From the NCBI GenBank assembly GCA_029577135.1, contig JARQPW010000005.1, positions 28,388 through 92,387 of the forward strand: a DNA stretch of 64,000 nt, given 5' to 3'. The notes beneath the pieces are model-generated. The model saw only the letters and a list, made by a program, of their open reading frames with translations. It had not been told where the DNA came from and ran no database searches. This stretch comes from Acidimicrobiales bacterium (lineage in GTDB: Bacteria; Actinomycetota; Acidimicrobiia; Acidimicrobiales; MedAcidi-G1). Each line of letters begins with the position of its first letter. The first letter of the stretch is position 1. Both the position numbers and the translations under genes were made by a program. Positions 39,042 to 64,000 of the stretch are shown in pieces.

Positions 39042-39598
39042 TTCGATGGCTGGAACTCGAGGTCGGCGGGCTCGTCCACGTCCCAGCCCAGGTCCGGGTC
39101 GGGGAGGCTGCGCCACGGCAGGCCCAGGCGCTGCGCCTCGGCGACGTGTCGGTCATGGGAACCCGGCCCGTAGGCGAACCGGAAGCCGGCGCCGACCGGG
39201 ACCACGGCCACGGGCGTGCCGTCGCCGTGGCGGTCGGGCACGAGCGTCACGCCGTCGAAGTCGGCGCAGCGGGCGAGGTCGGTGGCCCGGGGCAGGTCGC
39301 CGTGGGCGACGATCACCTGCTCGAAGCCGTCGGCGGCCAGTGCGGCGATGCCGGCGTGGACCGCCCGGTCTAGGCCGGGTCCGTCGACCCGGATCACGGC
39401 CGCTCCGAGCCCTTCGGCCCAGTCGGCGACCTGGTCGTCGTCGCACACCACCGCCACGGGCAGGGGTGCGGCAGCGGCGACCACCGTTTCGGCCATCCGG
39501 CGGGCGAGGTCGGCCCGCTCGCCCGCATCGAGTACCGACGAGAGACGGGCCTTGGCGCCTCGGAACGCCTTGAGCGGGATCAGTACGGCGGTCTGCAC
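39038..39598 (-). CDS. cofC: Phosphoenolpyruvate/2-phospho-L-lactate guanylyltransferase (F420 biosynthesis)
   Basis: A 186-residue nucleotidyltransferase of the CofC/FbiD family, making the guanylyl-activated three-carbon unit for cofactor F420. Landmarks are LIPLKAFRGAKARLS at the start, VVCDDDQVADWA, VIVAHGDLPRATDL near residue 95 and GDGTPVAVVP near residue 125. GTG 39598 follows TAGACT by 6 nt. Presence of this gene means the organism makes F420, which suits the LLM oxidoreductases elsewhere in the window. It is divergent from gpsA. Confidence 0.9.
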   Translation of the reverse strand: MQTAVLIPLKAFRGAKARLSSVLDAGERADLARRMAETVVAAAAPLPVAVVCDDDQVADWAEGLGAAVIRVDGPGLDRAVHAGIAALAADGFEQVIVAHGDLPRATDLARCADFDGVTLVPDRHGDGTPVAVVPVGAGFRFAYGPGSHDRHVAEAQRLGLPWRSLPDPDLGWDVDEPADLEFQPSK

Positions 39599-42050: not shown

Positions 42051-42062
42051 AAGCGGTTGCCC
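42035..42062. terminator. Bidirectional hairpin between unknown gene and repeat-protein gene
   Basis: GGGCA-GCTTCT (42035-42045) pairs with AGAAGC (42049-42054) and, after a GGT bulge, TGCCC (42058-42062). The loop CCT and flanking bases hold the stop codons of both convergent genes. Confidence 0.6.
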
Positions 42063-47568: not shown

Positions 47569-47589
47569 TCGTTGCTTTCGGTCAGGCGT
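47561..47589. terminator. Bidirectional hairpin between phosphoribosyltransferase and amidase
   Basis: ACGCCTGA (47561-47568) and TCAGGCGT (47582-47589) pair perfectly around a 13-nt loop. Each arm contains the stop codon of one of the two convergent genes. Confidence 0.65.
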
Positions 47590-49056: not shown

Positions 49057-49416
49057 CTACGAGTCCGCTTCGGCGCGCTCCAGGTAGTTGTAGATGGTGA
49101 AGCGGCTGACCCCGAGTGCCTCAGCGACGTCCTCCACGGACTTGCGCAGCGTGAACGCCCCCCAGCTGCCGAGGAGGGCGACGGCAGCCTGCTTCTGGTT
49201 GCGGTCCATGTCGACACAGGCCGCGCCGATCTCCTGTGCCGCCGCCCCGAGGAGCCGGTCGAGGGCGTGGTGCAGGTCGGGGCGGCGCAGGCCGCCGACG
49301 AGCTCGCCCTCCCAAAGCAGCGGGATGTCGGCCTCGGTCAGTTCGTCGGGGCCCAGCAGGGTGGCGCCGAGCGAGTCGGACACGGGACCGAGGGCGTGGA
49401 TGAGGGGATGCGCCAC
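49057..49416 (-). CDS. Small helix-turn-helix regulator (YheO/DauR-like C-terminal HTH)
   Basis: A 119-residue DNA-binding protein. The C-terminal helix-turn-helix (LRKSVEDVAEALGVSRFTIYNYLE, residues 89-112) resembles the HTH_22 domain of DauR/YheO regulators. The N-terminal part (ALGPVSDSLGATLLGPDELTEADIP) looks like a remnant of a sensor domain but is too short for a full PAS_6 module. GTG 49416 is chosen for the TACGCT hexamer 7 nt upstream. Divergent from the molybdenum hydroxylase operon, so it is the best candidate regulator of that cluster. Confidence 0.8.
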   Translation of the reverse strand: MAHPLIHALGPVSDSLGATLLGPDELTEADIPLLWEGELVGGLRRPDLHHALDRLLGAAAQEIGAACVDMDRNQKQAAVALLGSWGAFTLRKSVEDVAEALGVSRFTIYNYLERAEADS

Positions 49417-49423
49417 GCCGGAC

Positions 49424-49429
49424 AGCGTA
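49424..49429 (-). promoter_or_regulatory. -10 element TACGCT for leaderless HTH regulator gene
   Basis: Minus-strand TACGCT ends 7 nt before GTG 49416. The adjoining AT-rich stretch 49443-49465 (with ACAAATTGTTGAAAAG) is the probable control region of the rightward cluster. Confidence 0.5.
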
Positions 49430-49472
49430 GACCTCGGCGCACACGTTGACAAATTGTTGAAAAGACGGCAGC

Positions 49473-50333
49473 ATGGAGGCCATGTCGGTGACCATCGCGC
49501 GCACCCTCGACGACGCCTGTGTGGCACTCGCCGAGCACCCGGACGCCCTGTTGCTGGCGGGCGGCACCGATCTCATGGTCGGCGTCAACCGTGGACAGGT
49601 CGGATTCGACCACGTCGTGGTCATCGACCGGGTCGACGAACTGCGCGGTTGGCGGCGGGAGGGCGACGAACTCGTGCTCGGGGCCGGACTGACCTATGCG
49701 GAGATGGGGCGCGGGGAACTTCCGGTCCTCCTGCCCGCACTCGCCCAGGCCGCTCGAACCGTCGGCTCCCCGCAGATCCGCAACGCCGGCACCCTCGGCG
49801 GCAACCTCGCCACGTCCTCTCCGGCCGGCGACACCCTGCCGGTGCTCGTCGCCCTCGACGCCACCGTCGTCCTCCGGTCGTCGCACGGAACCCGCAAACT
49901 GGCCCTGGACCGCTTCGTCACGGGCGTCAAGCAGAACGCCCTCGAACCCGAGGAGTTGATCGAGGCGGTGCGGGTCCCCGTGCTCGACGGGCCCCAGGAG
50001 TTCCTCAAGGTCGGCACCCGCAACGCGATGGTCATCTCGGTGGCGTCCCTGGCCCTCGTTGTCGACCGTGCCGGTCGAAGCGTGCGGGTCGGGCTGGGCT
50101 CGGTCGCTCCGGTGCCGGTGCGTGCCGTCGAGGCCGAGGCCTTCGTGGATGGCGCCATCGACTGGGACACCGGTTCCGCGCCCGAAGCCGCCGTCGACCG
50201 ATTCGCAGGCCTGGTCGCCGAGGCCGCCCGTCCGATCGACGACCAGCGCGGGACCGCCACCTACCGGAGCCACGCGATCGGCGTCCTCGCCCGGCGTGCG
50301 CTGCGGCGGGCCTTTCCGGGGGGTGCCCCGTGA
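49473..50333 (+). CDS. Xanthine-dehydrogenase-type FAD-binding subunit
   Basis: A 286-residue FAD subunit of a molybdenum hydroxylase. The FAD-binding motifs are LLAGGTDLMVGVN near residue 29 and RNAGTLGGNLATSSPAGDTLP near residue 104. It carries electrons from the iron-sulfur subunit to NAD or another acceptor. Start is ATG 49473 or 49482 (MSVTIAR); GGAGG lies between them. It overlaps the next gene by GTGA and opens a translationally coupled run of seven genes. Confidence 0.92.
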   Translation: MEAMSVTIARTLDDACVALAEHPDALLLAGGTDLMVGVNRGQVGFDHVVVIDRVDELRGWRREGDELVLGAGLTYAEMGRGELPVLLPALAQAARTVGSPQIRNAGTLGGNLATSSPAGDTLPVLVALDATVVLRSSHGTRKLALDRFVTGVKQNALEPEELIEAVRVPVLDGPQEFLKVGTRNAMVISVASLALVVDRAGRSVRVGLGSVAPVPVRAVEAEAFVDGAIDWDTGSAPEAAVDRFAGLVAEAARPIDDQRGTATYRSHAIGVLARRALRRAFPGGAP

Positions 50334-50827
50334 GTGCCGGCCCCTACGTCCTGCGGGTCAACGGCAACGACCACGAGGTCCCCGACGCCCACCTCGGCGA
50401 GAGCCTCCTCTGGGTCCTGCGCGAGCGCCTGGGCCTGCCGGGTTCGAAGAACGCCTGCGAGGAGGGCGAGTGCGGTTCGTGCTCGGTCCAGGTCGACGGC
50501 GAACTGGTCTGCTCCTGCCTCGTGCTCGCCGCGGCAGGAGTCGGACGCGAGGTGACCACGATCGAGGGCCTCGCCCCCGATGGCGAGTTGGCGGACGTGC
50601 AGCGGGCCTTCGTCGAGGCCGGTGCCGTGCAGTGCGGCTTCTGCACCCCGGGGCTGATCATGGCCGTCGACACGCTGCTCGACGACCTGCCGGACGACGG
50701 CAGCGACCCCGACGACCTCATCGTCCGCGAGGCGATCAGCGGCAACCTCTGCCGCTGCACCGGATACGGCCGCATCCTCGAGGCCGTGTCGATCGCTGCC
50801 GACCTTCGCCGGGAGAACCGCACATGA
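50330..50827 (+). CDS. Molybdenum hydroxylase small 2Fe-2S subunit
   Basis: A 165-residue protein with two [2Fe-2S] clusters. The plant-type ferredoxin site is NACEEGECGSCSVQVDGE with LVCSC near residues 39-66. The second cluster uses GFCTPG and CRCTGYGRI in the C-terminal half. It transfers electrons from the molybdenum cofactor to the FAD subunit. GTGA overlap with the FAD subunit and ATGA overlap with the large subunit. Confidence 0.95.
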   Translation: MSAGPYVLRVNGNDHEVPDAHLGESLLWVLRERLGLPGSKNACEEGECGSCSVQVDGELVCSCLVLAAAGVGREVTTIEGLAPDGELADVQRAFVEAGAVQCGFCTPGLIMAVDTLLDDLPDDGSDPDDLIVREAISGNLCRCTGYGRILEAVSIAADLRRENRT

Positions 50828-53103
50828 CCGACGTGCGCACCGAAGAGCCCCGGACGGTCCAAGGCGCTCCCCGCATCGGCGAGAGCGCGCCGAGGCCCGA
50901 CGGGATCCCCAAGGTGAACGGCTCGTTCGCCTTCTCCAGCGACCTCTGGCACGACCGCATGCTCTGGGGCGGAACCCTCCGCTCGCCCCACCCGTCGGCC
51001 CGCATCCGGTCGATCGACATCGGACCGGCGGTCGCCGTCACCGGCATCCACGCCGTGCTCACCTCCGCCGACGTACCCGGCAGCCCCACCTACGGACTCG
51101 AGCACGCTGACCAGCCGGTGCTGGCATCCGATGTCGTGCGGTACGAGGGCGAGCCGGTCGCCATCGTCGCCGCCGACCATCCGGATGCCGTCCGGCTCGC
51201 CCTCGACGCCATCGTCGTCGACTACGAGGTGACGATGCCTCTCGTCGACCCGGGCGTGGCCGAGTCGTCCGATCCGATCCACCCGGACGGCAACCTCATC
51301 CGTCGCATCCACCTGCGCCATGGTGACCAGGAGGTCGTCGGCGACGTCGTCGTCGAGGGCACCTACGAGGTGGGCATGCAGGACCAGGCGTTCCTCGGCC
51401 CGGAATCCGGTCTGGCCGTCCCCGCCGAGGACGGTGGCGTCGAACTCTTCATCGCCACCCAGTGGCTCCACGCCGACCGCGACCAGGTGGCCGCCTGCCT
51501 CGGCCTCGAACCCGGACTCGTGCGCCTGACGCTGGCCGGCGTCGGTGGGGCGTTTGGTGCCCGCGAGGACCTGAGCCTCCACGCTCACCTCTGTCTGCTG
51601 GCCCTCCACACCCGCCGTCCCGTGAAGATGGTCTATTCCCGGGAGGAGTCGTTCCACGGGCACGTGCACCGGCATCCGGCGCGCATGTGGTACCGCCACC
51701 ACGCCGACCGTGCGGGCAACCTGGTGCGTGTCGAGGCCCGCCTGTTGCTCGACGGCGGTGCCTATGCATCGTCGAGCGGTGCCGTGATCGCCAACGCCAC
51801 CTGCTTCGCCGCCGGCCCATACCGGGTCCCGAGCGCCGACATCGAGGGCGTGGTCGTCCGCACCAACAACCCGCCCTGTGGCGCCATGCGCGGCTTCGGT
51901 GCCGTGCAGGTCTGCATCGGCCATGAGGCACAGATGGACCGCCTGGCTGCCGCCCTCGGCATGGACCCCGTCGAGTTGCGCCTCCGCAACGTGCTCGCCC
52001 CGGGAGACCGCCTGTCCACCGGCCAGGTCATCACCGGCACGGCGCCGGTCGCCGAGGTGCTGCGCAGTTGCGCCGACCATCCGTCCGCCGCCTCGCTTCC
52101 CGGGGACCCGATGTCCCTACCGGGGGGCGCTGGCCGTACCGCCGACCCCGCACACGTCCGTCGCGGCGAGGCGATCGCCCTGGGCTTCAAGAACCTCATG
52201 TTCTCCGAGGGTTTCGACGACTCCAGTTCGGCCATCTGCCGCCTGGAGGGAGGCGTCGCGACCGTCACCTGTGCCTGCGCCGAGGTCGGACAGGGCTTCG
52301 TCACCCTCGCCCAGCAGATCACCCGCGAGGTCCTCGGCGTCGACGAGGTCGTGCTGGCCCCGGCAGCCACCGCCACGATGGGCTCTGCCGGGTCCACCTC
52401 GGCCAGCCGACAGTCCTGGATGTCGGGCGGCGCCGTGCAGGCCGCCTGCGAGGAGGTCCGCGTCCGGCTCCTGGCCCGCGTCGCCGACGACCGCGGCGTC
52501 GACCCCGACGAGCTCGTCCTGGTCGAAGGCCGGGTCGTGTCGCTGTCGGGCGACTTCGAGGCCGACCTGGCGTCGGTCACCGCCGAGGCGATCGAGGCGG
52601 AGGTCGAGTTCCGCCACGCCCCGACCTCGCCCCTCGACGAGAACGGCCAGGGCGACGCCCACGTGTCGTTCGCCTTCTCCGCCCACCGGGCGATCGTCGA
52701 CGTCGACCGCGACCTCGGCCTCGTCAAGGTGGTCGAACTCACCACGTCCCAGGACGTGGGCCGGTTGCTCAACCCTCTCCAGGCCATCGGCCAGATCGAG
52801 GGCGGTGCCGCCCAGGGCGTGGGCCTCGCCGTCATGGAAGAGGTGCTGGTGCTCGACGGTCGGATCCGCAACGCCTCGTTCACCGACTACCTCGTGCCGA
52901 CGGCGCTCGACATGCCACCCGTCGAGATCGCCGCCCTCATCGAGCAGCCGGAGCCCGGAGCCCCGTTCGGCGCCAAGGGCATCGGCGAGCCACCCTGCAT
53001 CTCTTCGACGGCTGCTGTGGTCGCCGCCATTCGTGCGGCCACCGACCTTGACCTCACCCACGTGCCGGTCCGACCGACCGACATCGCACTCGCCGGGGCG
53101 TGA
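50824..53103 (+). CDS. Molybdenum hydroxylase large (molybdopterin-binding) subunit
   Basis: A 759-residue catalytic subunit of the xanthine dehydrogenase family. Cofactor-binding segments are GVGGAFGAREDLS near residue 240, CGAMRGFGAVQ near residue 357 and AEVGQGFVTL near residue 488. The active-site glutamate is in GAKGIGEPP near residue 720. No N-terminal iron-sulfur domain, so it works as a trimer-type enzyme with the two preceding subunits. The specific heterocycle cannot be read from sequence. Confidence 0.94.
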   Translation: MTDVRTEEPRTVQGAPRIGESAPRPDGIPKVNGSFAFSSDLWHDRMLWGGTLRSPHPSARIRSIDIGPAVAVTGIHAVLTSADVPGSPTYGLEHADQPVLASDVVRYEGEPVAIVAADHPDAVRLALDAIVVDYEVTMPLVDPGVAESSDPIHPDGNLIRRIHLRHGDQEVVGDVVVEGTYEVGMQDQAFLGPESGLAVPAEDGGVELFIATQWLHADRDQVAACLGLEPGLVRLTLAGVGGAFGAREDLSLHAHLCLLALHTRRPVKMVYSREESFHGHVHRHPARMWYRHHADRAGNLVRVEARLLLDGGAYASSSGAVIANATCFAAGPYRVPSADIEGVVVRTNNPPCGAMRGFGAVQVCIGHEAQMDRLAAALGMDPVELRLRNVLAPGDRLSTGQVITGTAPVAEVLRSCADHPSAASLPGDPMSLPGGAGRTADPAHVRRGEAIALGFKNLMFSEGFDDSSSAICRLEGGVATVTCACAEVGQGFVTLAQQITREVLGVDEVVLAPAATATMGSAGSTSASRQSWMSGGAVQAACEEVRVRLLARVADDRGVDPDELVLVEGRVVSLSGDFEADLASVTAEAIEAEVEFRHAPTSPLDENGQGDAHVSFAFSAHRAIVDVDRDLGLVKVVELTTSQDVGRLLNPLQAIGQIEGGAAQGVGLAVMEEVLVLDGRIRNASFTDYLVPTALDMPPVEIAALIEQPEPGAPFGAKGIGEPPCISSTAAVVAAIRAATDLDLTHVPVRPTDIALAGA

Positions 53104-53104
53104 G

Positions 53105-54364
53105 ATGACCCACGAGGACCTCCGCATCGACGGCGACCGCCTCCTCCGGCGGATCGGGGACCTGGCGGCGATCGGCCCCATCGACGGCGGCGGGTCGTGC
53201 CGCCTGGCGCTCACCGACGAGGACCGCGACGGCCGCGACCTGGTCGTCACGTGGATGCACGACCTCGGCCTCGACGTCGCCGTCGACGGCATCGGCAACG
53301 TGTTCGCCGTGCGGCCCGGCCGCACCGACGCCCCACCGGTGATGACCGGCAGCCACATCGACACGGTGCGCACGGGCGGTCGCTACGACGGCAACCTCGG
53401 CGTCCTCGCAGGCCTCGAGGTGCTTGAGACCCTGACCGAGCGCGGCATCGAGACCGAGCACCCGTTCGCCGTCGCCTTCTTCACCGACGAGGAGGGCGCC
53501 CGCTTCCCGCCGGACATGCTCGGCAGCCTCGTCTACGTGGGCGGCATGGGCCTCGAGGAGGCGCTCGACATCACCGGGATCGACGGCGCCGTCGTGGGCG
53601 ACGAACTCGACCGCATCGGCTACCGGGGCCCATACCCGTGCCCCGGTCCTGCCCCCCACGCGTTCGTCGAACTCCACATCGAACAGGGACCGGTCCTCGA
53701 GGCTGAGGGCGTCATTATCGGTGCCGTCACCAGTGTGCAGGGCATCTCCTGGACGGAGTACACGGTGACCGGCCAGGCCAACCACGCCGGCACCACGCCG
53801 ATGCACCACCGGCACGACGCCGGCTTCGCCGCAGCGAGCATCGCGACCCACGTGCGGGGACTTGCCACCCGGATGGGCGATGGGCAGGTCGCCACGGTCG
53901 GGCGCCTCGAACTGCACCCGGACCTCGTCAACGTGGTCGCCGGGTCCGCCGTGCTCACCGTCGACCTCCGCAACACCGACGAGTCACTCCTCCAGAGGGT
54001 CGAGGCCGACCTCGCCGGCTTCGTCGACGACCTTGCCGCAGCCGAGGGCGTCGAGATCACCGGCCGATCGCTGGCCCGCTTCGAGCCGGTCGTCTTCGAC
54101 GAACGGGTCGTCGACACCGTGGCGGCCGCCGCCGAACGCCTCGGCCACACGGTCAACCGGATGCCTTCGGGCGCCGGCCACGATGCCCAGATGCTCGCCC
54201 GGGTCTGTCCGACCGGCATGGTGTTCGTGCCCAGCCGGGACGGCATCAGCCACAACCCCGCTGAGCACACCGACGCCGACGACCTCGTCGCCGGCGCTGA
54301 CGTGCTGCTCCAGGTCATGCTCGCCATCGACCGTGCCACCCTTGACGGGGGAGCGCCCTCGTGA
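53105..54364 (+). CDS. M20 family Zn-dependent amidohydrolase (N-carbamoyl-amino-acid hydrolase/allantoate amidohydrolase type)
   Basis: A 419-residue M20-family hydrolase of the HyuC/AmaB/AllC group. Metal ligands lie in GSHIDTVRTGGRYDGNLGV near residue 78 and FFTDEEGARF near residue 124; ELHIEQGPVLE near residue 193 is the group's characteristic motif, and SHNPAEHT gives the last histidine. The family removes carbamoyl or ureido groups from ring-opened hydantoins or purine products. It begins 1 nt after the hydroxylase large-subunit stop and overlaps the nitrilase gene by GTGA. Confidence 0.92.
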   Translation: MTHEDLRIDGDRLLRRIGDLAAIGPIDGGGSCRLALTDEDRDGRDLVVTWMHDLGLDVAVDGIGNVFAVRPGRTDAPPVMTGSHIDTVRTGGRYDGNLGVLAGLEVLETLTERGIETEHPFAVAFFTDEEGARFPPDMLGSLVYVGGMGLEEALDITGIDGAVVGDELDRIGYRGPYPCPGPAPHAFVELHIEQGPVLEAEGVIIGAVTSVQGISWTEYTVTGQANHAGTTPMHHRHDAGFAAASIATHVRGLATRMGDGQVATVGRLELHPDLVNVVAGSAVLTVDLRNTDESLLQRVEADLAGFVDDLAAAEGVEITGRSLARFEPVVFDERVVDTVAAAAERLGHTVNRMPSGAGHDAQMLARVCPTGMVFVPSRDGISHNPAEHTDADDLVAGADVLLQVMLAIDRATLDGGAPS

Positions 54365-55338
54365 GCCGCATCGTCACCGTCGGCGCCGCCCAGACCGGCC
54401 CCATCCAGCGTGACGACACCCGGGCCGAGGTCGTCGAACGGCTTGTGGCGCTGCTGCGCCAGGGAGCCGACGCCGGCTGCGACCTCATCGTGTTCCCCGA
54501 ACTGGTCCTCACCACCTTCTTCCCCCGCTGGTGGGTCGACGACCGGGCCGAGTTCGACCACTTCTTCGAGACCGAGATGCCCGGCCCAGACACCCGGCCC
54601 CTGTTCGACGAGGCCGCCCGCCTCGGCGTCGGCTTCCACCTCGGCTACGCCGAACTCACGCCGGAGGGACAGCACTTCAACACGGCCATCGTGGTCGACC
54701 GGCAGGGCACCGTCATCGGGAAGTACCGCAAGGTGCACCTGCCCGGCCACCACGACCACCAGCCTTGGCGGGAGTTCCAGCATCTCGAGCGCTACTACTT
54801 CGACCCGGGAGCCGGCTTCGGCGTGTTCGCCGGCTTCGGCGGCGTGCTCGGCATGGCGATCTGCAACGACCGCCGCTGGTCCGAGACCTACCGGGTGCTC
54901 GGCCTGCAAGGTTGCGAACTGGCGATGATCGGCTACAACACGCCGATCCACTACGCCCCCGACCCGAGCCAGGACGTGCTCCAGGGGTTCCACAACCGCC
55001 TCTGCCTGCAGTCGGGCGCCTACCAGAACGGCATGTGGGTGGTCGGCGTGGCCAAGGCCGGCGAGGAGGAGGGCTACGACCTCCTCGGCGAGAGCGCCAT
55101 CATCGCTCCGAGCGGCGAGGTCCGGGCCGCCTGCTCGACGGTCGGCGACGAGTTGGCCGTCGCCGAATGCGACCTCGGCCAGTGCGCCAACTACAAGGAC
55201 ACGCTCTTCGACTTCGGCTACTACCGGCGGCCCGAGGCCTACGGCACCATTACCGCCCAGCAGGGCGTCGTCGTGCCGCCAGACGTGGCGGCCGCACTCG
55301 AGAACTCGGACGACGACGACACGGGAGGCACGGCATGA
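54361..55338 (+). CDS. Nitrilase superfamily hydrolase, N-carbamoyl-D-amino acid hydrolase-like
   Basis: A 325-residue carbon-nitrogen hydrolase. The catalytic triad is Glu47 (IVFPELVLT), a lysine near residue 124 (GKYRKVHLPG) and Cys168 (AICNDRRWSE). The CNDRRW sequence and triad spacing match D-carbamoylases closely. It therefore probably hydrolyses an N-carbamoyl amino or related acid to amine, CO2 and ammonia. Having both an M20 and a nitrilase carbamoylase in one operon suggests two ureido intermediates or stereoisomers (inference). Confidence 0.9.
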   Translation: MSRIVTVGAAQTGPIQRDDTRAEVVERLVALLRQGADAGCDLIVFPELVLTTFFPRWWVDDRAEFDHFFETEMPGPDTRPLFDEAARLGVGFHLGYAELTPEGQHFNTAIVVDRQGTVIGKYRKVHLPGHHDHQPWREFQHLERYYFDPGAGFGVFAGFGGVLGMAICNDRRWSETYRVLGLQGCELAMIGYNTPIHYAPDPSQDVLQGFHNRLCLQSGAYQNGMWVVGVAKAGEEEGYDLLGESAIIAPSGEVRAACSTVGDELAVAECDLGQCANYKDTLFDFGYYRRPEAYGTITAQQGVVVPPDVAAALENSDDDDTGGTA

Positions 55339-57917
55339 CCACCTTCGAACTCAACGGCACAGCGGTCACCGCATCCGACGACCACCCGCACCTGCTGTCC
55401 GCCCTGCGCGACGAGTTGGACGTGCTGTCACCCAAGGACGGCTGTGCACCGTCCGGACAGTGCGGCTGTTGCACCATCCTGCTCAACGGGAAGGCACGCA
55501 TCGGGTGCCAGACGTCGATGGAAAAGGCCGAGGGGGCATCGGTCGTGACCCTCGAGGGACTCGACCCGGCGGAGCGGGACCGGTATGTGGCGGCCTTCGC
55601 CGCCCACGGCGCCCTCCAGTGCGGGTTCTGCACGCCGGGCATCCTGATGCGGGCCAAGGCGCAGATCGACAGGAAGGGCAGCGCCCTCACACGTGACGAT
55701 GTCGCCCGCCACCTCGGCGCCCACCTCTGCCGCTGCACCGGTTACATCAAGATCCTCGACGCCGTCGAGTCGCTGGCCCGGAACGAGGTGCCGGTGGCTG
55801 CGCCCAGCGGCGGCATCGGCAGCAGCGGCATCAAGTACGAGGCCGCCGAGCTGAGCCTGGGCGACCGGCCGTTCATCGACGACCTGCGGCCGCCCGGACT
55901 CCTCCACGCAGCCCTGCACCTCGCCGACCACGCCCGGGCCGACGTGGTGCGGATCGACACCGCGGAAGCGGCGGCCGTCGAGGGCGTCGAGGCGGTGTTC
56001 ACTGCAGCCGACGTCCCGGGCGAGCTGCGCGTCGGGCTGATCCACAAGGACTGGCCGGTGTTCATCCCCGAGGGCGGGCGCACCTCCTACCTGGGCGACG
56101 TGCTGGCCGTCGTCGTCGCCGGTGACCGGGAGACCGCCCGACATGCCGCCACGCTCGTCGACGTCGAGTACGTGCCGCTGGCCCCGTTCAGCGACCCGGT
56201 CATCGCGGTCGGGTCCGACGAAGACGCCGTCTGGGGGCTCGACGGCAACGTGCTGTCGGTGTCGGCCTACTCGCGGGGCGACGTCGAGGCGGCGCTCGCC
56301 GAATCGGCACACGTGGTCGACGACGTCTACCAGACCCAGCGCATCGAACACGCCTTCGTGGAACCCGAGTCCACGCTCGCCGTCCCCACGGACGATGGCG
56401 GCCTGTACGTCTACTCCGGCGGGCAGGGCGTGTGGGACGACCGCAACCAGGTGGCTTCGGTGCTCGGTCTCGACACCGACCGGATCACCGTCGAACTCGT
56501 GAGCAACGGCGGAGCCTTCGGTGGCAAGGAGGACATGTCAAACCAGGCCCAGACGTCGCTGGCCGCATGGCTGCTGGGTCGACCCGTTCGCTGCACGCTG
56601 TCGCGTGAGGAATCCATGCTGATGCACCCGAAGCGGCATCCGATCCGCATGGCCTACCGGGCCGGCTGCGACGCCGACGGCAGGCTCACCGGGCTCTGGG
56701 CCCGCATGATCGGCGACTCCGGCCCCTATGCCTCGGTCGGCATGAAGGTGCTCGAGCGGGCCGCCGGCCACGCCAGCGGTCCGTACGTGGTCCCCAACAT
56801 CGACGTCGAGTCGACGGCCGTGCGCACCAACAACCCGGTCTGCGGTGCGTTCCGGGGCTTCGGCGCCAACCAGGCACAGTTCGCCATGGAGGGCGTCATG
56901 GACCGCCTGGCCGCGGCGGTCGGCATCAGCGGCTGGGAGATGCGCAACCGCAACGTGATCGAGCCCGGCTCGGTCTGGGGCCCGGGCCAGGTCATGGACG
57001 ACGGCTGCCTCGGCGCCCGCGCCTGCCTCGACGACGTGCGCGAGGCATACGACGAGGCGGTGGCTGCCGGCAAGCCGGTCGGCCTCGGGCTGGGCCTCAA
57101 GAACTCCGGCCTCGGCAACGGCTTCAAGGAGATCGCCCGGGCCGTCGTGCACTTCCGCGAGGACGGCAAGGTCGAGGTGCGGCACTGCTGGACCGAGATG
57201 GGCCAGGGGGTCCACACCGTGGCCCTGCAGGTGGCGGTCGAGGAGCTCGGTATCGACCCCGAGCGGATCGAGGTCATCGTCGACACCACCCGCGAGCTCG
57301 GTGCCGGCCAGACGACCGGGAGCCGGGGAACCCTCATGGGCGCCGGCTCGGTCGCCGAGGCCTGCCAAAAGGCCGTCGCCAACGGCTGCCAGGTGGGTGT
57401 CGACTACGAGGGCGAGTACCGGGTCGACTGGACCAACTCGATGAACGAGGGGCTCGAGAACCCGGTGATCCACTCCACGTTCGGCTACGCCGCCCAGCTC
57501 GTGATCCTGGATCCCGAGTCCGGCGACATCGAGCGGGTCGTGGCCTCCCACGACGTCGGCCGTGCCGTCAATCCGCAGTTGTGCGAGGGCCAGATCGAGG
57601 GGTCCGTCCACATGGGCCTCGGCTACGCCCTCACCGAGGGGTTCCCCGCCGACGAGGAGTCACGACCGCGCAACTCGACTCTGCGGAGCCTCGGCATTCT
57701 GCGACCCAAGGACATGCCCGAGGTCGACGTGCGCCTCATCGAGTCGCCCCAGCCCGACGCCCCCTACGGGATCAAGGGCGTCGGCGAGATCGGCCTGGTA
57801 CCGACGGCCGGTGCCGTGGCCGCCGCCCTCCATGCACACGACGGCGAGTGGCGCACCGAGCTGCCGATGGCCGCCCCCGGACAACTGGAGCACTGGGCCG
57901 ACTGGGACGGGAGATGA
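55335..57917 (+). CDS. Fused iron-sulfur/molybdopterin hydroxylase (selenium-type xanthine dehydrogenase-like)
   Basis: An 860-residue single-chain molybdenum hydroxylase. Residues 1-155 hold two [2Fe-2S] sites (CAPSGQCGCC near residue 36, CGFCTPG and CRCTGYIK). The remainder is the molybdopterin part with NGGAFGGKEDMS near residue 393, CGAFRGFGANQAQ, EMGQGVHTVALQ and GIKGVGEIGL near residue 813. Arrangement and motifs resemble the XdhD/selenium-dependent hydroxylase group. There is no FAD domain, so an external electron acceptor is needed. A second hydroxylase in one operon implies two oxidation steps. ATGA overlaps at both ends. Confidence 0.93.
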   Translation: MTTFELNGTAVTASDDHPHLLSALRDELDVLSPKDGCAPSGQCGCCTILLNGKARIGCQTSMEKAEGASVVTLEGLDPAERDRYVAAFAAHGALQCGFCTPGILMRAKAQIDRKGSALTRDDVARHLGAHLCRCTGYIKILDAVESLARNEVPVAAPSGGIGSSGIKYEAAELSLGDRPFIDDLRPPGLLHAALHLADHARADVVRIDTAEAAAVEGVEAVFTAADVPGELRVGLIHKDWPVFIPEGGRTSYLGDVLAVVVAGDRETARHAATLVDVEYVPLAPFSDPVIAVGSDEDAVWGLDGNVLSVSAYSRGDVEAALAESAHVVDDVYQTQRIEHAFVEPESTLAVPTDDGGLYVYSGGQGVWDDRNQVASVLGLDTDRITVELVSNGGAFGGKEDMSNQAQTSLAAWLLGRPVRCTLSREESMLMHPKRHPIRMAYRAGCDADGRLTGLWARMIGDSGPYASVGMKVLERAAGHASGPYVVPNIDVESTAVRTNNPVCGAFRGFGANQAQFAMEGVMDRLAAAVGISGWEMRNRNVIEPGSVWGPGQVMDDGCLGARACLDDVREAYDEAVAAGKPVGLGLGLKNSGLGNGFKEIARAVVHFREDGKVEVRHCWTEMGQGVHTVALQVAVEELGIDPERIEVIVDTTRELGAGQTTGSRGTLMGAGSVAEACQKAVANGCQVGVDYEGEYRVDWTNSMNEGLENPVIHSTFGYAAQLVILDPESGDIERVVASHDVGRAVNPQLCEGQIEGSVHMGLGYALTEGFPADEESRPRNSTLRSLGILRPKDMPEVDVRLIESPQPDAPYGIKGVGEIGLVPTAGAVAAALHAHDGEWRTELPMAAPGQLEHWADWDGR

Positions 57918-58960
57918 CGGACCACGCCGACACGGCGACGACACCGGGGCTGGTCTGCGCCCACCACCACCTCTACTCGGCGCTGGCACGCGGCATGCCT
58001 GCACCGCCCCGTACGCCCGGAGACTTCGGGGAGATCCTCGAACTTGTGTGGTGGCGCCTCGACCGGGCGCTCGACCTCGAGTCGATCCGCTGGTCGGCGA
58101 TGCTCGGCGCCCTCGAGGCCCTGGAGCGCGGTTGCACGGCGGTCATCGACCACCACGAGTCGCCCGAGGCGATCGAGGGTTCGCTCTCGGTCGTCGCCGA
58201 TGCGTGTGCCGAGGTGGGGGTGCGGGTCGACTGCAGCTACGGCGTCACCGACCGGCACGGCCCCGACGCGGCGCGGCGCGGCCTCGAGGAGAACGCCCGC
58301 TTCCTCGCCGGGGGCGGGAGGGGCCGGGTGGGCGTGCACGCCGCGTTCACCTGCAGCGACGAGACGCTCGAGGCGGCTGCCGGCATGGCCGTCGACCACG
58401 GCGTCGGCGTCCACATCCACGTGGCCGAGGGCCCGATCGACTCCGACGCCGCCGACCGGCTGCGCCACCTCGCCACCGACGACTGGCTGGTGGTGCACGG
58501 CGTGCACCTCGACGACGACCACGGACTGGCGGGCACCGTCGTGCACAACCCGCGGTCCAACATGAACAACGCCGTCGGCTACGCCCGACCCACCCGGTTC
58601 GCCAACCCGGTGGCTCTCGGCTCCGACGGGATCGGCGCCGACATGCTCGACGAGTTCCGGGTCGCCTACTTCCGACACCGCGAACATGACGTGGCCGCCT
58701 CGCCCGAGACCGCCTGGGGCTGGCTGGCCGCCGGCTGGGACCTGTTCCCCGAGGCCCGAGACGACCGGGTGACCTGGGCCTACGACCCGATGGACCCGTG
58801 GCGGCTCGCCTTCACGCCGGGCGTCGGACCGACGCGGGTCGAGGTCGACGGCGAGGTGGTGTGGGCCGACGGCGCACCGACGAGGGTCGACGCCGACGAG
58901 GTGCGGGCCCGGGCCGCAGAGGAAGCCAGCCGGCTGCACCGGCGGCTGGACCAGACCTGA
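57914..58960 (+). CDS. SsnA-like amidohydrolase, short N-terminus
   Basis: A 348-residue amidohydrolase. Metal ligands are HHH in [14 protein letters not shown] near residue 16, a histidine in VHIHVAEG near residue 172 and VHGVHL, with an aspartate in [10 protein letters not shown] near residue 235. [11 protein letters not shown] matches the SsnA group found beside selenium-type hydroxylases. The first half of the usual outer beta domain (about 50 residues) is missing; the start ATG 57914 overlaps the hydroxylase stop and no earlier in-frame extension is sensible. Probably a deaminase or ring-opening hydrolase. Confidence 0.85.
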
Positions 58961-58988
58961 AATCGGACCGAGCGGAGGAAGCACGACC

Positions 58989-59990
58989 ATGACCCGACTG
59001 GCGATCTACCTGCAGGACGCACACACCATCGGCGAGGCGATCGAGTTCACCCGGTACGCCGAGCAACGGGGCTTCGAGGCCGTCTGGCAGGCCGACTCGC
59101 GACTCGTGCGCGACGCCGTCGTGCCGATGGCCGCCTTCGCCGCCTGCACCGACACGATCAAGATCGGATCGGGGGTCGTCGACTGCTGGACCCGCAACCC
59201 CGCGCGGCTGGCCTCGACCTTCTCGACGCTCGACGACCTGGCCCCCGGGCGGATGCTGCTGGGCATCGGCGCCTGGTGGGATCCGCTGGCCGCCAAGGTG
59301 GGCATCGAGCGCAAGCGTCCGTTGGGTGTCATGCGCGAGGTGGTCACCGTCGTCCGGGCGCTGCTGGCCGACGAGACGGTCACCTTCGACGGCGACTACG
59401 TGCACCTCGACGGCGTCGAACTCGACTACGTGTACCAGGAGCGTCGCCCCAAGGAGGTGCCGATCTACATCGGCGCCACGGGCATGAAGATGATGGAGCT
59501 GACCGGAGAGATCGCCGACGGTGTCGTGCTCAACTACCTCGTGTCGCCCGAGTACAATCGGCGGGCCATGGAGGCCCTCGAGGTGGGTGCCGCCCGTGCC
59601 GGACGCAGCGTCGACGACCTCGACCGTCCGCAGTTGGTGGTCTGCTCGGTGGCCGATACCCGCAAGGAGGCCCTCGACGGCGCCCGCCTGATGGTCACCC
59701 AGTACCTCGGCCAACAGCCCCACATCATGAAGGCCTCCGGCGTCCCCGAGTCGCTCCTCGAGGAGATCGGCCGGGTCCTGACCTGGCCCGCCACCCACGA
59801 TCAGGTCGAGGCCGCCTCGAGGCTGGTGCCCGACGACATCGTCCAGATGATCTGCGCCGCGGGAACGCCGGACGAGGTTCGTGAGAAGGTGGGGCAGTAC
59901 ATGGCCGACGGCTGTACCTGCCCGATCCTCTACCCGCTGGGACCCGATGTGCACATGATGGTCGACGTGTTCGCCGACTGGACGCCCTGA
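58989..59990 (+). CDS. LLM class oxidoreductase, F420-dependent (Mer-like)
   Basis: A 333-residue luciferase-fold protein. [26 protein letters not shown] opens the barrel; [36 protein letters not shown] and [28 protein letters not shown] are typical of F420-dependent reductases such as Mer. A GGAGGAAG ribosome sequence precedes ATG 58989. Inside a heterocycle-degradation cluster it could reduce a ring double bond with F420H2 (inference). cofC elsewhere in the window shows F420 is available. Confidence 0.87.
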
Positions 59991-60009
59991 TGCCCCGGGC
60001 GGGCCACTG

Positions 60010-61299
60010 ATGACCCGACTTGTCGTACGCGGCGCCCGCTACCCGGGCGACCTCGCCGTCGAGGACGGCGTCATCACGGCCGTCGGCACGGTCGAGGCGC
60101 TGCCCGGTGACGAGGTGCTTGCCGTCGACGGCGACATCGCCACGGCCGGGCTCGTCAACACCCACCACCACCTCTACCAGTGGATGACGAGGGGCCGGGC
60201 CACCGGGTGCAACCTGTTCGACTGGCTGGTGCACCTCTACCCGGTCTGGAACCGCCTGTCGGTCGAGGACGTGCGGGCCGCCGCCCTGGTGGGCCTGGGC
60301 GAACTGGCCGCCTCCGGCTGCACGACGGCGTCCGACCACCACTACCTGGTGCCCAGCGGCGACGACTCGGTCTTCGATGCGATCGTCGATGCCGCCGGCG
60401 AGGTCGGCATCCGACTGTTCCTCTCCCGCGGGTCCATGGACCTGGGGGAGAGCCGCGGCGGCCTGCCGCCCGACCGGGTGGTCGAGGACCGCGACGCCAT
60501 CCTCGCCTCGACCGAGGCCGTGGCCGCACGTCACCACGACGGCGACATGGTCCACGTGGTCGTGGCCCCGTGCAGCCCGTTCTCGGTCACCACCGAGCTC
60601 ATGGTCGAGTCGGCAGAGTTGGCCCGCAGGCTGGGCCTGCGCCTCCACACCCATCTCTGTGAGACCGTCGAGGAACAACAGCACTGCCTCGAGCGGTTCG
60701 GACGACGGCCGGTCGAGATGCTCGAGGAATGGGGCTGGGTCGGCGACGACGTCTGGTTGGCCCACGGCATCCACATCGACGACGCCGAGATGGGCATCCT
60801 CGGCAACGCCGGCACGGGCGTGGCGCACTGCCCGTCATCCAACGCCCGGATCGCCTCCGGCATGTGCCGGGTCACCGACCTCATGGCCGCCGGCTGCCCG
60901 GTCGGCCTGGGCGTCGACGGGGTGGCGTCCAACGAGGTGGGCGGCCTGTTCCCCGAACTGCGCCAGGCTCTGTACACGGCCCGGCTCCGGGAGATGAGGC
61001 CCGACGCACTCATGCCGTCCGACGTCCTCGAGATCGGCACGCACGGGGGTGCCCGGTGCCTCGGCCTCGACGATGTTGGACGCCTCTCGCCGGGGATGAA
61101 GGCCGATCTGGTGGTCTGGCCGGGCGACGACCTCGGCGACGTCCACGACCCGCTCGCCGGCCTGGTGCTCGGCCCGGACCGCCGGGCCCGCCACGTGCTG
61201 GTTGGCGGGAAGCCGGTGGTCACCGACGGTTCGCTCGTCGGCGTCGACCTGGCGGCCGCCCACCGCGACCTCGCCGAGCGCGCAAGGCGGCTCTGGTGA
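60010..61299 (+). CDS. 8-oxoguanine deaminase-like amidohydrolase (ATZ/TRZ family)
   Basis: A 429-residue metal-dependent deaminase. NTHHHLYQWMTRG near residue 55 carries the first histidines, HTHLCETVEEQ near residue 213 the next, HGIHIDDAEM near residue 255 and LGVDGVASNE near residue 300 the remaining ligands. HCPSSNARIASG near residue 276 is typical of the 8-oxoguanine/hydroxyatrazine deaminase group. It would convert an aminopurine such as 8-oxoguanine to a hydroxypurine, but pterin or triazine substrates are also possible. 19 nt after the LLM gene. Confidence 0.87.
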   Translation: MTRLVVRGARYPGDLAVEDGVITAVGTVEALPGDEVLAVDGDIATAGLVNTHHHLYQWMTRGRATGCNLFDWLVHLYPVWNRLSVEDVRAAALVGLGELAASGCTTASDHHYLVPSGDDSVFDAIVDAAGEVGIRLFLSRGSMDLGESRGGLPPDRVVEDRDAILASTEAVAARHHDGDMVHVVVAPCSPFSVTTELMVESAELARRLGLRLHTHLCETVEEQQHCLERFGRRPVEMLEEWGWVGDDVWLAHGIHIDDAEMGILGNAGTGVAHCPSSNARIASGMCRVTDLMAAGCPVGLGVDGVASNEVGGLFPELRQALYTARLREMRPDALMPSDVLEIGTHGGARCLGLDDVGRLSPGMKADLVVWPGDDLGDVHDPLAGLVLGPDRRARHVLVGGKPVVTDGSLVGVDLAAAHRDLAERARRLW

Positions 61300-61332
61300 G
61301 AGGAACCGACGCCGGTGGGCCATGATGGCGAA

Positions 61333-61578
61333 GTGACCGCCACCGCCGAGTTTACGATCGAGCCGTTCGTCGATGGCGCCCCGGGCCCGCACGTCCGTGC
61401 CGCCATCGCCGTCGCCGAGGAGGCAGGGCTGGACGTCGAGATCGGCCCGTTCGGCACGTCGGTTACCGGCGAGACGTCCGTCGTGGTGTCCACCGTCGAC
61501 GCCCTGCTGCGGGCCGCCATCGACCACGGCGCCACCCGGGTCTCCTTGCAGGTGACGGTCGACCCGATGTCCGAATGA
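61333..61578 (+). CDS. Thiamine-binding protein family (YkoF/MTH1187-like)
   Basis: An 81-residue protein with a ferredoxin-like fold. AEFTIEPFVDGAPGPHV, VEIGPFGTSVTGE and STVDALLRAAIDHGATRVSLQVTVD match the thiamine/HMP-binding family (PF01910). GTG 61333 is preferred to GTG 61315 because the family starts within a few residues of it. Placed between a deaminase gene and a BMP transporter gene, it may bind a pyrimidine or thiamine-like ligand in the cytoplasm. Confidence 0.85.
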   Translation: MTATAEFTIEPFVDGAPGPHVRAAIAVAEEAGLDVEIGPFGTSVTGETSVVVSTVDALLRAAIDHGATRVSLQVTVDPMSE

Positions 61579-61639
61579 GGGTCGGATGCATCCACCGAAC
61601 GTGGGCCGGATCCACGGTTGACACCGGGGAGGAGTCCCG

Positions 61640-62725
61640 ATGAAGCGACGCCTGTTCGGACTATTCGCCGTTGTCCTGACCCTGAGCCTCGTCGCCGCAT
61701 CCTGCGGTTCCGAAGGCGCAACCACGACCAGGGCCGCCTTCGTCTACGTGGGCCCCGTCGGGGATGCCGGATGGACGTGGGCGCACGAACAGGGCCGCCT
61801 TGCTGCCGAAGCGACTACAGGCGTCGAGACCGCCTTCGTCGAGTCGGTTCCCGAGGGCGGAGCCGATTTCGCCGACAGTGTCCGCCAGTTCATCGACGAC
61901 GGCTACGATGTCATCATCGGCACGTCGTTCGGCTACATGGACGACATGCTGGCCCTTGCCGACGAGCACCCGGACGTCGTCTTCGAGCACATCTCGGGCT
62001 ACCTGTCGAACGACACCAACTTCGGCAACTCCTTCGGCCGCATGTACGAGCCCCGCTACCTCTCCGGCATGGTCGCCGGCTCGGCCACCACGTCGAACCA
62101 GGTCGGCTATGTGGCCGCCTTTCCGATCCCGGAGGTCGTCCGGGGCATCAACGCCTTCGCCCTGGGCGTCCAGGAGGTCAACCCGGACGCCACCGTCGAA
62201 GTGGTCTGGACCAGCACGTGGTTCGACCCGGTTGTCGAGGGCGACTCGGCCCAGGCCCTGCTCGACAAGGGCGTCGACGTGCTCGCCATGCACCAGGACT
62301 CCCCGGCCGTCGGCGAGAAGGCCGAGGCGGCCGGTGCCCGGTGGGTCTCGTACAACTCGGACATGAGTGCCTTCGCCCCGAACGCCTACCTGACGGCGCC
62401 CGTCTGGGACTGGGGCCCCCGGTACGCCGAGATCATCGAGGCGGCAAGGGCCGGCACCTACACGCCGACGCCGGACGGCTACTGGGGCTCGATGGCCGAC
62501 GGCGTGGTCGCCCTGGCGCCCATCGCCTCCGACGTGGATGCCGATGTCGTGGCAGCGGTCGAGGCCCGCAGGGCCGAGATCATCGCCGGCACGTTCCACG
62601 TGTTCAGCGGTCCGATCAACGACCAGGACGGTTACGAAGCCGTGGCCGCCGGCGAGGCCCTGGACGACGGTGCACTGCTCGGCATGGAGTTCTTCGTCCA
62701 GAGCGTCATCGGGACCCTCGGGTAG
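61640..62725 (+). CDS. BMP family ABC transporter substrate-binding lipoprotein
   Basis: A 361-residue extracellular solute receptor of the Med/PnrA type. The N-terminus is a lipoprotein signal (MKRRLFGLFAVVLTLSLVAASC) with the lipidated cysteine at residue 22. FVYVGPVGDAGWTWAHEQG and VIIGTSFGYMDDMLALADEHPDVVFEHISGY are BMP signatures, and GSMADGVV lies near residue 280. Members bind purine nucleosides, and some bind riboflavin or thiamine-like ligands. GGAGGAG precedes ATG 61640. The ATPase follows 98 nt downstream. Confidence 0.92.
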   Translation: MKRRLFGLFAVVLTLSLVAASCGSEGATTTRAAFVYVGPVGDAGWTWAHEQGRLAAEATTGVETAFVESVPEGGADFADSVRQFIDDGYDVIIGTSFGYMDDMLALADEHPDVVFEHISGYLSNDTNFGNSFGRMYEPRYLSGMVAGSATTSNQVGYVAAFPIPEVVRGINAFALGVQEVNPDATVEVVWTSTWFDPVVEGDSAQALLDKGVDVLAMHQDSPAVGEKAEAAGARWVSYNSDMSAFAPNAYLTAPVWDWGPRYAEIIEAARAGTYTPTPDGYWGSMADGVVALAPIASDVDADVVAAVEARRAEIIAGTFHVFSGPINDQDGYEAVAAGEALDDGALLGMEFFVQSVIGTLG

Positions 62726-62823
62726 CCGAGATTGGCCGGTACCCGCCCCGATCGGCGCCGGAGGAGAGGTCGCCTCTCCGGTGCCGTCGCGCCCGGCTGT
62801 CCTGAGATCCCACGGAACACGCC

Positions 62824-64000
62824 ATGAGCCAGGCCGCCGCCGTCGAACTGGTCGACATCTGGAAGCGGTTCCCCGGCGTCGTCGCCAACGCCGGTGCCCA
62901 CCTACGCGTCGAACGGGGAACCGTCCACGCCGTCCTCGGCGAGAACGGGGCGGGCAAGTCCACGTTGATGAACGTGTTGTCGGGCGTGTACCGGCCCGAC
63001 GGGGGGGAGGTGCGCCTCGACGGCACCCAGCAGCGCTTCCACACCCCGGCCGACGCCCTGGCAGCGGGCATCGGGATGGTCCATCAGGAGTTCCGCCTGG
63101 TCCCGTCGTTCACGGTTGCCGAGAACGTGGTCCTGGGCGCCGCCGAGCGCATCCTGCGGCGTCAGGACGTCGAGACCCGTGTCGGCGAGCTGGCCCGCCG
63201 CTTCGGCCTCGCCACCGAACCGGACCGGCCGGTCTGGCAGCTTTCGATGGGGGAGCGGCAACGCGTCGAGATCCTCAAGGCCCTGTGGCGTGATGCCCGG
63301 ATCCTGATCCTCGACGAGCCGACCGCCGTGCTCACGCCCAACGAGGCCGACGAGCTCGGCGGGGTGCTCCGGCACATGGCCGACGACGGCCGGTCCGTGA
63401 TCTTCATCAGCCACAAGTTGCACGAGGTCACCGGGTTCTGCGACGTGGCGACCGTGCTGCGCGACGGTGAAACCGTCGCCGCCTCCCTCCCGGTCGCCGA
63501 GACCGACGCAGCCACGCTCGCGGGCCTCATGGTGGGCTCGGCCTCGCTGGCCGGCGAGCGCCCGCCGTCCCGGACGCCGGGCGAGGTCCGGCTGGCGATG
63601 GCCGGAATCTGCGCCCTGGGCGACCGCGGACTCCCCGCCGTCCATGACGTCGACCTGCAGGTTCGTTCCGGCGAGATCGTCGGAATCGCAGGAGTGGCGG
63701 GCAACGGGCAGCGGGAGTTGGCCCAGGTCATCGCCGGGCTGCGGCCCGCCACGGATGGGACCGTGCACCTCGGTGGGGCAGACGTCACCACTTACCCGAC
63801 GCGCCGGCGCTTCGGTTTCGGACTCTGCTACATCCCCGAGGACCGCCTCGGCGTGGGCCTCGCCCCGAGGCTGTCGGTCGTCGAGAACGCCGTCCTGCGC
63901 ACCTACAGGGGTCACCGGCGCGGTCCGTTCCTCATCGCGTCCAGGATGACCGCCCACTGCCGGGACCTCGTCGAACGGTTCGGCGTTCGGACCGGGGCAC
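62824..64000 (+). CDS. ABC transporter ATPase, two-domain sugar/nucleoside type (3' end outside window)
   Basis: The frame is open to the right edge (at least 392 residues). The first nucleotide-binding domain has Walker A GENGAGKST at residues 39-47, Q-loop VHQEFRLVPS, signature LSMGERQRVEI near residue 142 and Walker B ILILDEPTAVL. The second domain begins near residue 255 with VHDVDLQVRSGEIVGIAGVAGNGQREL and CYIPEDRLGVGL, the degenerate half typical of the RbsA/NupA/YufO group. With the BMP receptor it forms a nucleoside-type importer; permeases should lie to the right. Confidence 0.93.
   Translation, partial: MSQAAAVELVDIWKRFPGVVANAGAHLRVERGTVHAVLGENGAGKSTLMNVLSGVYRPDGGEVRLDGTQQRFHTPADALAAGIGMVHQEFRLVPSFTVAENVVLGAAERILRRQDVETRVGELARRFGLATEPDRPVWQLSMGERQRVEILKALWRDARILILDEPTAVLTPNEADELGGVLRHMADDGRSVIFISHKLHEVTGFCDVATVLRDGETVAASLPVAETDAATLAGLMVGSASLAGERPPSRTPGEVRLAMAGICALGDRGLPAVHDVDLQVRSGEIVGIAGVAGNGQRELAQVIAGLRPATDGTVHLGGADVTTYPTRRRFGFGLCYIPEDRLGVGLAPRLSVVENAVLRTYRGHRRGPFLIASRMTAHCRDLVERFGVRTGA

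Follow-up and report, generated by a model that had tools for sequence, protein, structure and literature searches.

A conserved gene block of marine actinobacteria and its predicted F420-dependent variant of reductive urate degradation

Which ring compound is degraded by a compact cluster that joins two molybdenum enzymes, two decarbamoylase-type hydrolases, two amidohydrolases and a putative coenzyme F420-dependent oxidoreductase, and by which route? The cluster lies in a 64,000-nucleotide stretch, here called the window, of an Acidimicrobiales bacterium of the family MedAcidi-G1 (GenBank assembly GCA_029577135.1, contig JARQPW010000005.1). The window comprises positions 28388-92387 of contig C45 of this 2.35 Mb genome (G000, 68 contigs), and its end is the end of the contig. 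Its gene content suggests, with a probability that we put at roughly three in four, that the block, found in marine actinobacteria with genes for aerobic respiration, encodes an F420-dependent variant of the reductive pathway of urate degradation. Nine tightly packed genes of the + strand, from the FAD (flavin adenine dinucleotide) subunit to the 8-oxoguanine-deaminase-like gene, span positions 49473-61299. They are given here with the divergent regulator and the genes that follow.

49057..49416, - strand: divergent regulator with an HTH_22 domain and a GTG start at 49416 (PF13309, 61.2 bits over 29.6)
49473..50333, + strand: FAD subunit of a three-part xanthine dehydrogenase (PF00941, 165 bits; XdhB, 171.8 bits, under the cut-off of 310)
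50330..50827, + strand: [2Fe-2S] subunit of the three-part xanthine dehydrogenase (PF01799, 98.5 bits; XdhC, 157.9 bits, under the cut-off of 217)
50824..53103, + strand: molybdopterin subunit, PucD type (TIGR03196 pucD, 836.5 bits, above the cut-off of 783.65)
53105..54364, + strand: M20 carbamoylase (TIGR01879, 398 bits over 204; PDB matches include 8c46)
54361..55338, + strand: D-carbamoylase-type nitrilase (from its best 11 PDB matches; no NCBIfam cut-off passed)
55335..57917, + strand: fused [2Fe-2S]-molybdopterin enzyme, fusXDH (TIGR03311, 826.3 bits; alignment with Escherichia coli XdhD)
57914..58960, + strand: short SsnA-type amidohydrolase of 348 residues (PRK07203, 266 bits, under the cut-off of 444)
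58989..59990, + strand: F420-type luciferase-fold oxidoreductase, LLM (PF00296, 236 bits; nearest to F420-dependent Mer)
60010..61299, + strand: 8-oxoguanine-deaminase-type amidohydrolase (PRK08203 equivalog, 551.5 bits over 532)
61333..61578, + strand: 81-residue protein of the Thiamine_BP (MTH1187) family (PF01910, 41.1 bits)
61640..62725, + strand: BMP/PnrA-type substrate-binding protein of an ATP-binding cassette (ABC) importer (PF02608, 176 bits)
62824..64000, + strand: ATPase of the ABC importer, truncated where the contig ends (PF00005)

Every gene named in the original prediction is present according to family models, and the gene junctions it described, from the hydroxylase through the SsnA-like gene, are borne out on the sequence. 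The FAD and [2Fe-2S] genes overlap by GTGA (50330), the [2Fe-2S] and molybdopterin genes by ATGA (50824), the M20 and nitrilase genes by GTGA (54361), and the nitrilase, fusXDH and SsnA-type genes successively by ATGA (55335 and 57914), with a gap of 1 nt between the molybdopterin and M20 genes (53104). Gaps of 28 nt and 19 nt precede the LLM and 8-oxoguanine-deaminase-like genes, respectively. The thiamine-binding-type protein is real, but its match is weak (PF01910, 41.1 bits over 24.9; TIGR00106, 22.9 bits, under 54.7). The remainder of the importer, including the permeases, lies at the start of contig C22 of the same genome. In a related genome (G002), the sequences that match these two contig ends lie next to each other and overlap by about 90 nt, so the importer continues from one contig into the other.

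Gene content, gene order, co-occurrence and mutual exclusion were read directly from a set of 61 genomes, namely the window's genome and 60 relatives, 37 of the 61 belonging to the window's family. An SsnA-like match was obtained in 41 of the 61 and in all but three of the family genomes. The surroundings of SsnA were fetched for 33 loci in 32 family genomes besides the window's own; G026 was left out because its SsnA match is divided between contigs. Conservation among relatives, on which the prediction had been staked, was found: the order fusXDH-SsnA-LLM is kept in 33/33 loci. The M20 carbamoylase is present in 30, and the nitrilase and the 8-oxoguanine-deaminase-like enzyme in 31 each, all misses but one falling at contig ends. 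The divergent regulator, whose HTH_22 domain we take to be of the YheO/DauR type, is present in 25/33. This conservation is more than expected by chance. A protein search with fusXDH returned at least 7,999 scored relatives, of which the best 120 are 97-100% identical and come mostly from ENA sources, with some from JGI, NCBI and Tara.

The pathway to which these genes point was worked out in 2025 (Li et al., PMC12507026). As described in that paper, urate is converted to yanthine by XdhD, and YgfK or UacX then dearomatises yanthine reductively, coupled to ring opening by SsnA; HyuA, YgeW or UacY together with YgeY, and finally YgeX lead to pyruvate. According to a second report (PMC12990295), the pathway is confined to obligate or facultative anaerobes and may be a gut adaptation; the report also notes that an R configuration has been proposed for the ureido intermediates. 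The clostridial xanthinase pathway is mentioned in both PMC12990295 and PMC12507026. Among the titles and abstract openings that a literature search listed, there was no report of the reductive pathway in Actinomycetota.

As in E. coli and Clostridioides difficile, an SsnA-type gene stands here beside a fused enzyme resembling a molybdenum dehydroxylase, decarbamoylase-type hydrolases accompany it, and HyuA is encoded in the genome; in sister families, YgeX and YgfK homologues adjoin orthologues of the window's SsnA. Identities to E. coli K-12 proteins are 36% for SsnA, 38% for the YgfK-like protein, 34-37% for YgeX and 40-41% for HyuA. The block differs from the E. coli and C. difficile systems in having an F420-type LLM rather than YgfK or UacX, a nitrilase and an M20 carbamoylase rather than YgeW/UacY and YgeY, and a PucD-type xanthine dehydrogenase and an 8-oxoguanine-deaminase-like enzyme within the same block. 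Two more differences are that the host has genes for aerobic respiration and that no YgeX was found in its family. Kinship of the block to the SsnA loci known from enterics and clostridia is supported, as is a route that hydroxylates, reduces and hydrolyses a purine in actinobacteria with aerobic respiration genes. The substrate, given as a purine or related ring, was right as to purine but too vague. Since the homologues of the block are those of the reductive urate pathway, it can be narrowed to urate.

The absence of YgfK had been held against the known pathway, an argument that fails: the LLM occupies the place of YgfK in the block, and sister lineages have a YgfK-type gene beside the same SsnA. 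In whole-genome searches LLM was found at 70% identity or more in 37/61 genomes and YgfK in 4/61; G020 and G052, which have only LLM paralogues of 47-48% identity, were not counted for LLM. No YgfK-type match was obtained in the window's genome or family at an E value of 1e-40. Exactly one of the two reductases is present in 41/41 genomes with SsnA and neither in 20/20 without it (Fisher 1.6e-16, without correction for kinship). In the other families, one of them is present in 7/7 genomes with SsnA and in 0/17 without (Fisher 2.9e-6). A wider locus set, the best 80 of 549 confirmed matches from named genomes, gave LLM in 59 loci, YgfK in 17, both in 0 and neither in 4. SsnA is followed within 300 nt, on its own strand, by LLM in 55 of these 80 loci and by YgfK in 14. 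A tree of SsnA (80 rows, quick method) shows six changes between LLM and YgfK, at least four of them forced by starred branches. A shared substrate predicts such swapping of unrelated reductases beside one hydrolase; by analogy with YgfK this substrate would be yanthine, and the F420-type LLM is predicted to take the place of YgfK as yanthine reductase.

An F420 enzyme beside SsnA has been noted before: in Chloroflexota, a luciferase-family enzyme encoded near SsnA and putatively dependent on F420 was proposed as an alternative yanthine reductase (PMC12507026). The paper also reports SsnA in Actinomycetota; its available part contains no mention of LLM there. Compared with the Chloroflexota loci, the present case adds an actinomycetotal host, mutual exclusion tested across whole genomes, several switches between the two reductases in the SsnA tree, and downstream steps assigned to a defined module.

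Two further arrangements were seen. In L129 (21 kb around SsnA) the order M20-nitrilase-SsnA occurs with neither LLM nor YgfK within 10 kb on either side, which may mean that the pathway genes are dispersed or that yet another type of reductase is used. In L155 (8884-9861) and L159 a different luciferase-fold protein lies between fusXDH and SsnA, and the usual LLM is found upstream on the other strand.

Loci from other families of the order, whose SsnA proteins are 65-77% identical to that of the window, bridge the block and the known pathway. In L045 (G054) the genes M20-nitrilase-fusXDH-SsnA-LLM-YgeX all lie on one strand, and L052 (G038) has fusXDH-SsnA-LLM with YgeX and a D-hydantoinase alongside. 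L047 has nitrilase-fusXDH-SsnA-YgeX-YgfK followed by two permeases, BMP and ATPase genes. The order is nitrilase-SsnA-LLM-YgeX-YqeB-YqeC in L107 and L108 and LLM-HyuA-SsnA in L111 and L124. L185, away from the SsnA of its genome (G053), has M20-YgfK-nitrilase-fusXDH-PLP2-PLP1 on one strand, PLP1 and PLP2 being pyridoxal phosphate (PLP) proteins described below. The YgeX proteins of L047 and L052 pass PRK08206 (323 and 333 bits against 276) and fail both TIGR03528 and TIGR01747; the HyuA of L052 passes TIGR02033 (490 against 393). The YgfK-like protein (594-598 residues) is a short form that covers residues 5-405 and 898-978 of E. coli YgfK and has no middle part, matching the first 400 positions of TIGR03315 with 416-437 bits, under the 835-bit cut-off.

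By sequence and by model, LLM is nearest to F420-dependent Mer (PDB 8qpl, 1z69, 1f07), with which it shares the fold and about 25-30% identity. The AlphaFold model is middling (mean predicted local distance difference test, pLDDT, of 70.3) and carries no claim about the cofactor pocket; its best PDB matches are Mer with F420, at a template modelling score of about 0.8. LLM differs from Mer in its putative substrate and in forming a separate, highly conserved clade tied to SsnA, with 71-98% identity to the window's protein. F420 supply is supported by CofC in the window and CofD elsewhere in the genome, where it scores over its cut-off; CofD is present in 50/61 genomes, in 46 over the cut-off. 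LLM would thus be a Mer-like protein predicted to bind F420 in a host that makes this cofactor.

39041..39598, - strand: CofC, F420 biosynthesis, outside the block (TIGR03552, 124.4 bits over 105)

The SsnA-type enzyme is predicted to open the ring of dihydroyanthine. It aligns with E. coli SsnA over 387 columns, and His17-19, His167, His169, His195 and Asp238, presumably the amidohydrolase metal ligands, are invariant in 10/10 aligned sequences. Surveys of SsnA that rely on curated cut-offs would likely miss this short form, since it scores below them.

For the ureido steps, two decarbamoylase-type hydrolases are found in the block, of families other than YgeW/UacY and YgeY. The best 11 PDB matches of the nitrilase are all N-carbamoyl-D-amino-acid hydrolases, with E values down to 6e-114, and the PDB matches of the M20 enzyme include the N-carbamoyl-beta-alanine amidohydrolase 8c46. 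The nitrilase is predicted to remove the 2-ureido group and the M20 carbamoylase the other, likely the 3-ureido group; the proposed R configuration of the intermediates would suit a D-carbamoylase. HyuA is encoded at C10:16909-18312 of the window's genome and is 61% identical to the L052 enzyme and 40% to E. coli HyuA. It occurs in 43/61 genomes, 39 of the 41 with SsnA and 4 of the 20 without.

For the last step, YgeX-type proteins above 50% identity were found only in G038, G054 and G060 of the 61 genomes, there beside SsnA; ten further genomes gave matches at 29-35% only, taken as ordinary relatives. Tail-to-tail behind the importer, several genera carry PLP1 together with PLP2, both of them previously unstudied fold-type-II PLP proteins that accompany the SsnA block. 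Examples of the two genes are as follows.

L121, 18527-19732, - strand: PLP1/PLP2 example
L155, 2348-3916, + strand: PLP1/PLP2 example
Window's genome, contig C22, 2455-3627: PLP1/PLP2 example

PLP1 is present in 34/37 family genomes and, in other families, in 5/7 genomes with SsnA and 0/17 without, which gives 37/41 and 2/20 overall. PLP1 or YgeX occurs in 39/41 genomes with SsnA. Among the best 80 of the 549 loci, YgeX is near SsnA in 7, PLP1 in 21 and both in 0. PLP1, with PLP2, is a candidate replacement for YgeX, and no more is proposed. That PLP1 is a simple relative of YgeX was rejected: the closest fold to its model (pLDDT 89) is threonine synthase, diaminopropionate ammonia-lyase ranks 9th, and two aspartates of YgeX are not kept.

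Taken in order, steps predicted from homology and gene context would run as follows. The BMP-type importer would bring purines into the cell, where the PucD-type xanthine dehydrogenase (49473-53103) likely converts hypoxanthine and xanthine to urate, and the 8-oxoguanine-deaminase-type enzyme likely feeds urate from 8-oxoguanine. The former resembles the Bacillus subtilis-type enzyme (PucC/D/E) in that its molybdopterin subunit passes the PucD cut-off, whereas its FAD and [2Fe-2S] subunits fall under those of PucC and PucE. Next, fusXDH (55335-57917), the predicted urate reductase, would take the 6-oxygen off urate to give yanthine (2,8-dioxopurine). With F420H2, LLM (58989-59990) would reduce the pyrimidine half of yanthine, in E. 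coli the task of YgfK; ring opening to ureidomethyl-hydantoin by the SsnA-type enzyme would draw this reaction forward. The D-hydantoinase encoded on C10 would open the hydantoin to 2,3-diureidopropionate, from which the nitrilase and the M20 carbamoylase would strip the two ureido groups to yield 2,3-diaminopropionate. In the sister families YgeX would turn this product into pyruvate and ammonia; in the window's family the linked PLP1, with PLP2, may replace it. That ocean actinobacteria with a full aerobic respiratory chain use urate reductively in this oxygen-free manner, through a luciferase-fold yanthine reductase that depends on F420H2 and shares no ancestry with YgfK, and with a new PLP lyase (PLP1 with PLP2) last in place of YgeX, is a more tentative proposal, its chances falling a little short of even.

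The host is described here as carrying aerobic respiration genes, not as strictly aerobic. COX1 was found in 60/61 genomes, and PMC10205998 describes the five genera of the family MedAcidi-G1 as encoding aerobic heterotrophy and respiratory complexes I to IV. The words purine and xanthine are absent from the main text of that paper. Uricase (PF01014) and hydroxyisourate hydrolase (PF00576) were each found in 0/61 genomes (FAD-type urate hydroxylases were not searched), in line with the prediction that the standard uricase route is not involved.

Several observations weigh against the assignment to the reductive urate pathway. The SsnA-like protein lies far under both curated cut-offs (PRK07203, 266.3 against 444; TIGR03314, 247.7 against 455.5) and matches the SsnA profile only from position 51 onward. 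LLM is under the cut-offs of the Mer models (193 against 276; 179 against 349), and L120, L129 and L160 have 4.6, 10 and 5.6 kb behind SsnA with neither LLM nor YgfK, although no search covered the whole of these genomes; in the fourth such locus, L157, the contig is cut 2 nt behind SsnA. Proteins of the block match no YgeW or YgeY model (UacY, YgeW and YgeY were not sought elsewhere in the genome), HyuA of the window's genome lies outside the cluster, and YgeX was found in 0/37 genomes of the family. PLP1 lacks the aspartates aligned to Asp120 and Asp189 of YgeX, which we take to be functional. The block does not travel whole: at set identity limits, the 17 YgfK loci include fusXDH in 7, M20 in 2 and the nitrilase in 4, and L041 truly has no nitrilase between M20 and fusXDH. 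COX1 is also present in the facultative E. coli used as a control, so strict aerobiosis of the family is not established, and denitrification genes are reported in one genus of the family (PMC10205998). As for fusXDH, it scores 4 bits under the cut-off (830.45) of TIGR03311, the selenium-dependent xanthine dehydrogenase model, is only 23% identical to E. coli XdhD, and keeps the ordinary E and R at two purine-pocket positions where XdhD has Q and Q. YqeB, a marker of selenium-cofactor maturation, scores over its cut-off in only 18/61 genomes, the window's not among them. Because YgfK, YgeX and the curated SsnA cut-off are all wanting in the window's genome, full membership of the pathway is not claimed.

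The two pocket positions of fusXDH are presumably those of Glu802 and Arg880 in bovine xanthine dehydrogenase, and at the column of XdhD Glu606 fusXDH has D and the PucD-type subunit T. With ordinary pocket residues, fusXDH could be an ordinary hydroxylase running forwards. Both molybdenum enzymes would then oxidise a purine or another N-heterocycle, such as a methylated purine, a pterin or a nicotinate-like ring, and LLM would reduce the product. Aerobic hosts usually run molybdenum hydroxylases forwards, and the nearest solved relatives of fusXDH are aldehyde oxidoreductases, nicotinate dehydrogenase and xanthine dehydrogenases. Even so, the orthologues of fusXDH keep, in the loci compared, the company of SsnA, YgeX, HyuA and YgfK, which is that of the urate pathway, and the mutual exclusion of LLM and YgfK points to one shared substrate. 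The best curated match of fusXDH is, moreover, TIGR03311, and C. difficile XdhD is described as likewise lacking a FAD subunit (PMC12507026). We consider such a hydroxylating route unlikely.

The carbamoylases raise another explanation, namely that enzymes of both stereochemistries recycle N-carbamoyl amino acids or uracil together with a D-hydantoinase, the molybdenum enzymes being separate. Both carbamoylases of the block (M20 and nitrilase) and the D-hydantoinase encoded on C10 would fit, yet the block has no hydantoinase, its carbamoylase genes sit gapless between two molybdenum-enzyme genes with SsnA following, and HyuA tracks SsnA across the genomes. This explanation is highly improbable. 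A pathway related to the clostridial xanthinase (ureido-imidazole) route, with direct opening of xanthine by the amidohydrolases, is equally improbable, although no search for the xanthinase genes was made. Two amidohydrolases and the decarbamoylases would fit its sequence of steps, yet that route is not known to use YgfK or LLM, HyuA or YgeX, which co-occur here.

Should the F420-dependent reductive pathway be confirmed, the route would be tied neither to anoxia nor to the gut, occurring in marine plankton that has aerobic respiration and no recognisable uricase, and the view that it belongs to gut and other anaerobes would be broken. F420 would gain a new catabolic substrate, and a specific enzyme, LLM, would be named for the previously only suspected F420 yanthine reductase. 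Further gains would be a module for decarbamoylation by hydrolysis and a PLP protein as a new candidate for processing diaminopropionate, and ocean purine turnover would gain an unrecognised gene set.

Selenium dependence of fusXDH, prompted by its match to TIGR03311, is not claimed, YqeB being over its cut-off in 0/6 genomes of the window's genus. Downstream of the block, certain family genera (L042:14097-20000; L033, L046, L053, L061 and others) carry a second cluster on the opposite strand, made up of a further LLM of about 30% identity, one or both of YqeC and YqeB, a further 8-oxoguanine-deaminase-like amidohydrolase and a further molybdenum hydroxylase. The YqeB and YqeC genes beside the block in other genera accompany this second cluster; in L107 and L108 they directly follow YgeX.

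Near the block, a xanthine-phosphoribosyltransferase-like gene is found at 47044-47568 on the + strand (54.8 bits, under the cut-off of 138), and a gene resembling it by eye directly adjoins the regulator of the block in L121. An amidase-signature-family enzyme (47582-49030, - strand) is divergent from the block and is kept beside it in many family loci. Further away, the translation of a short open reading frame (42047-42394, - strand) consists of a repeated SVGSAGSIL-like motif, by eye probably a tandem DNA repeat.

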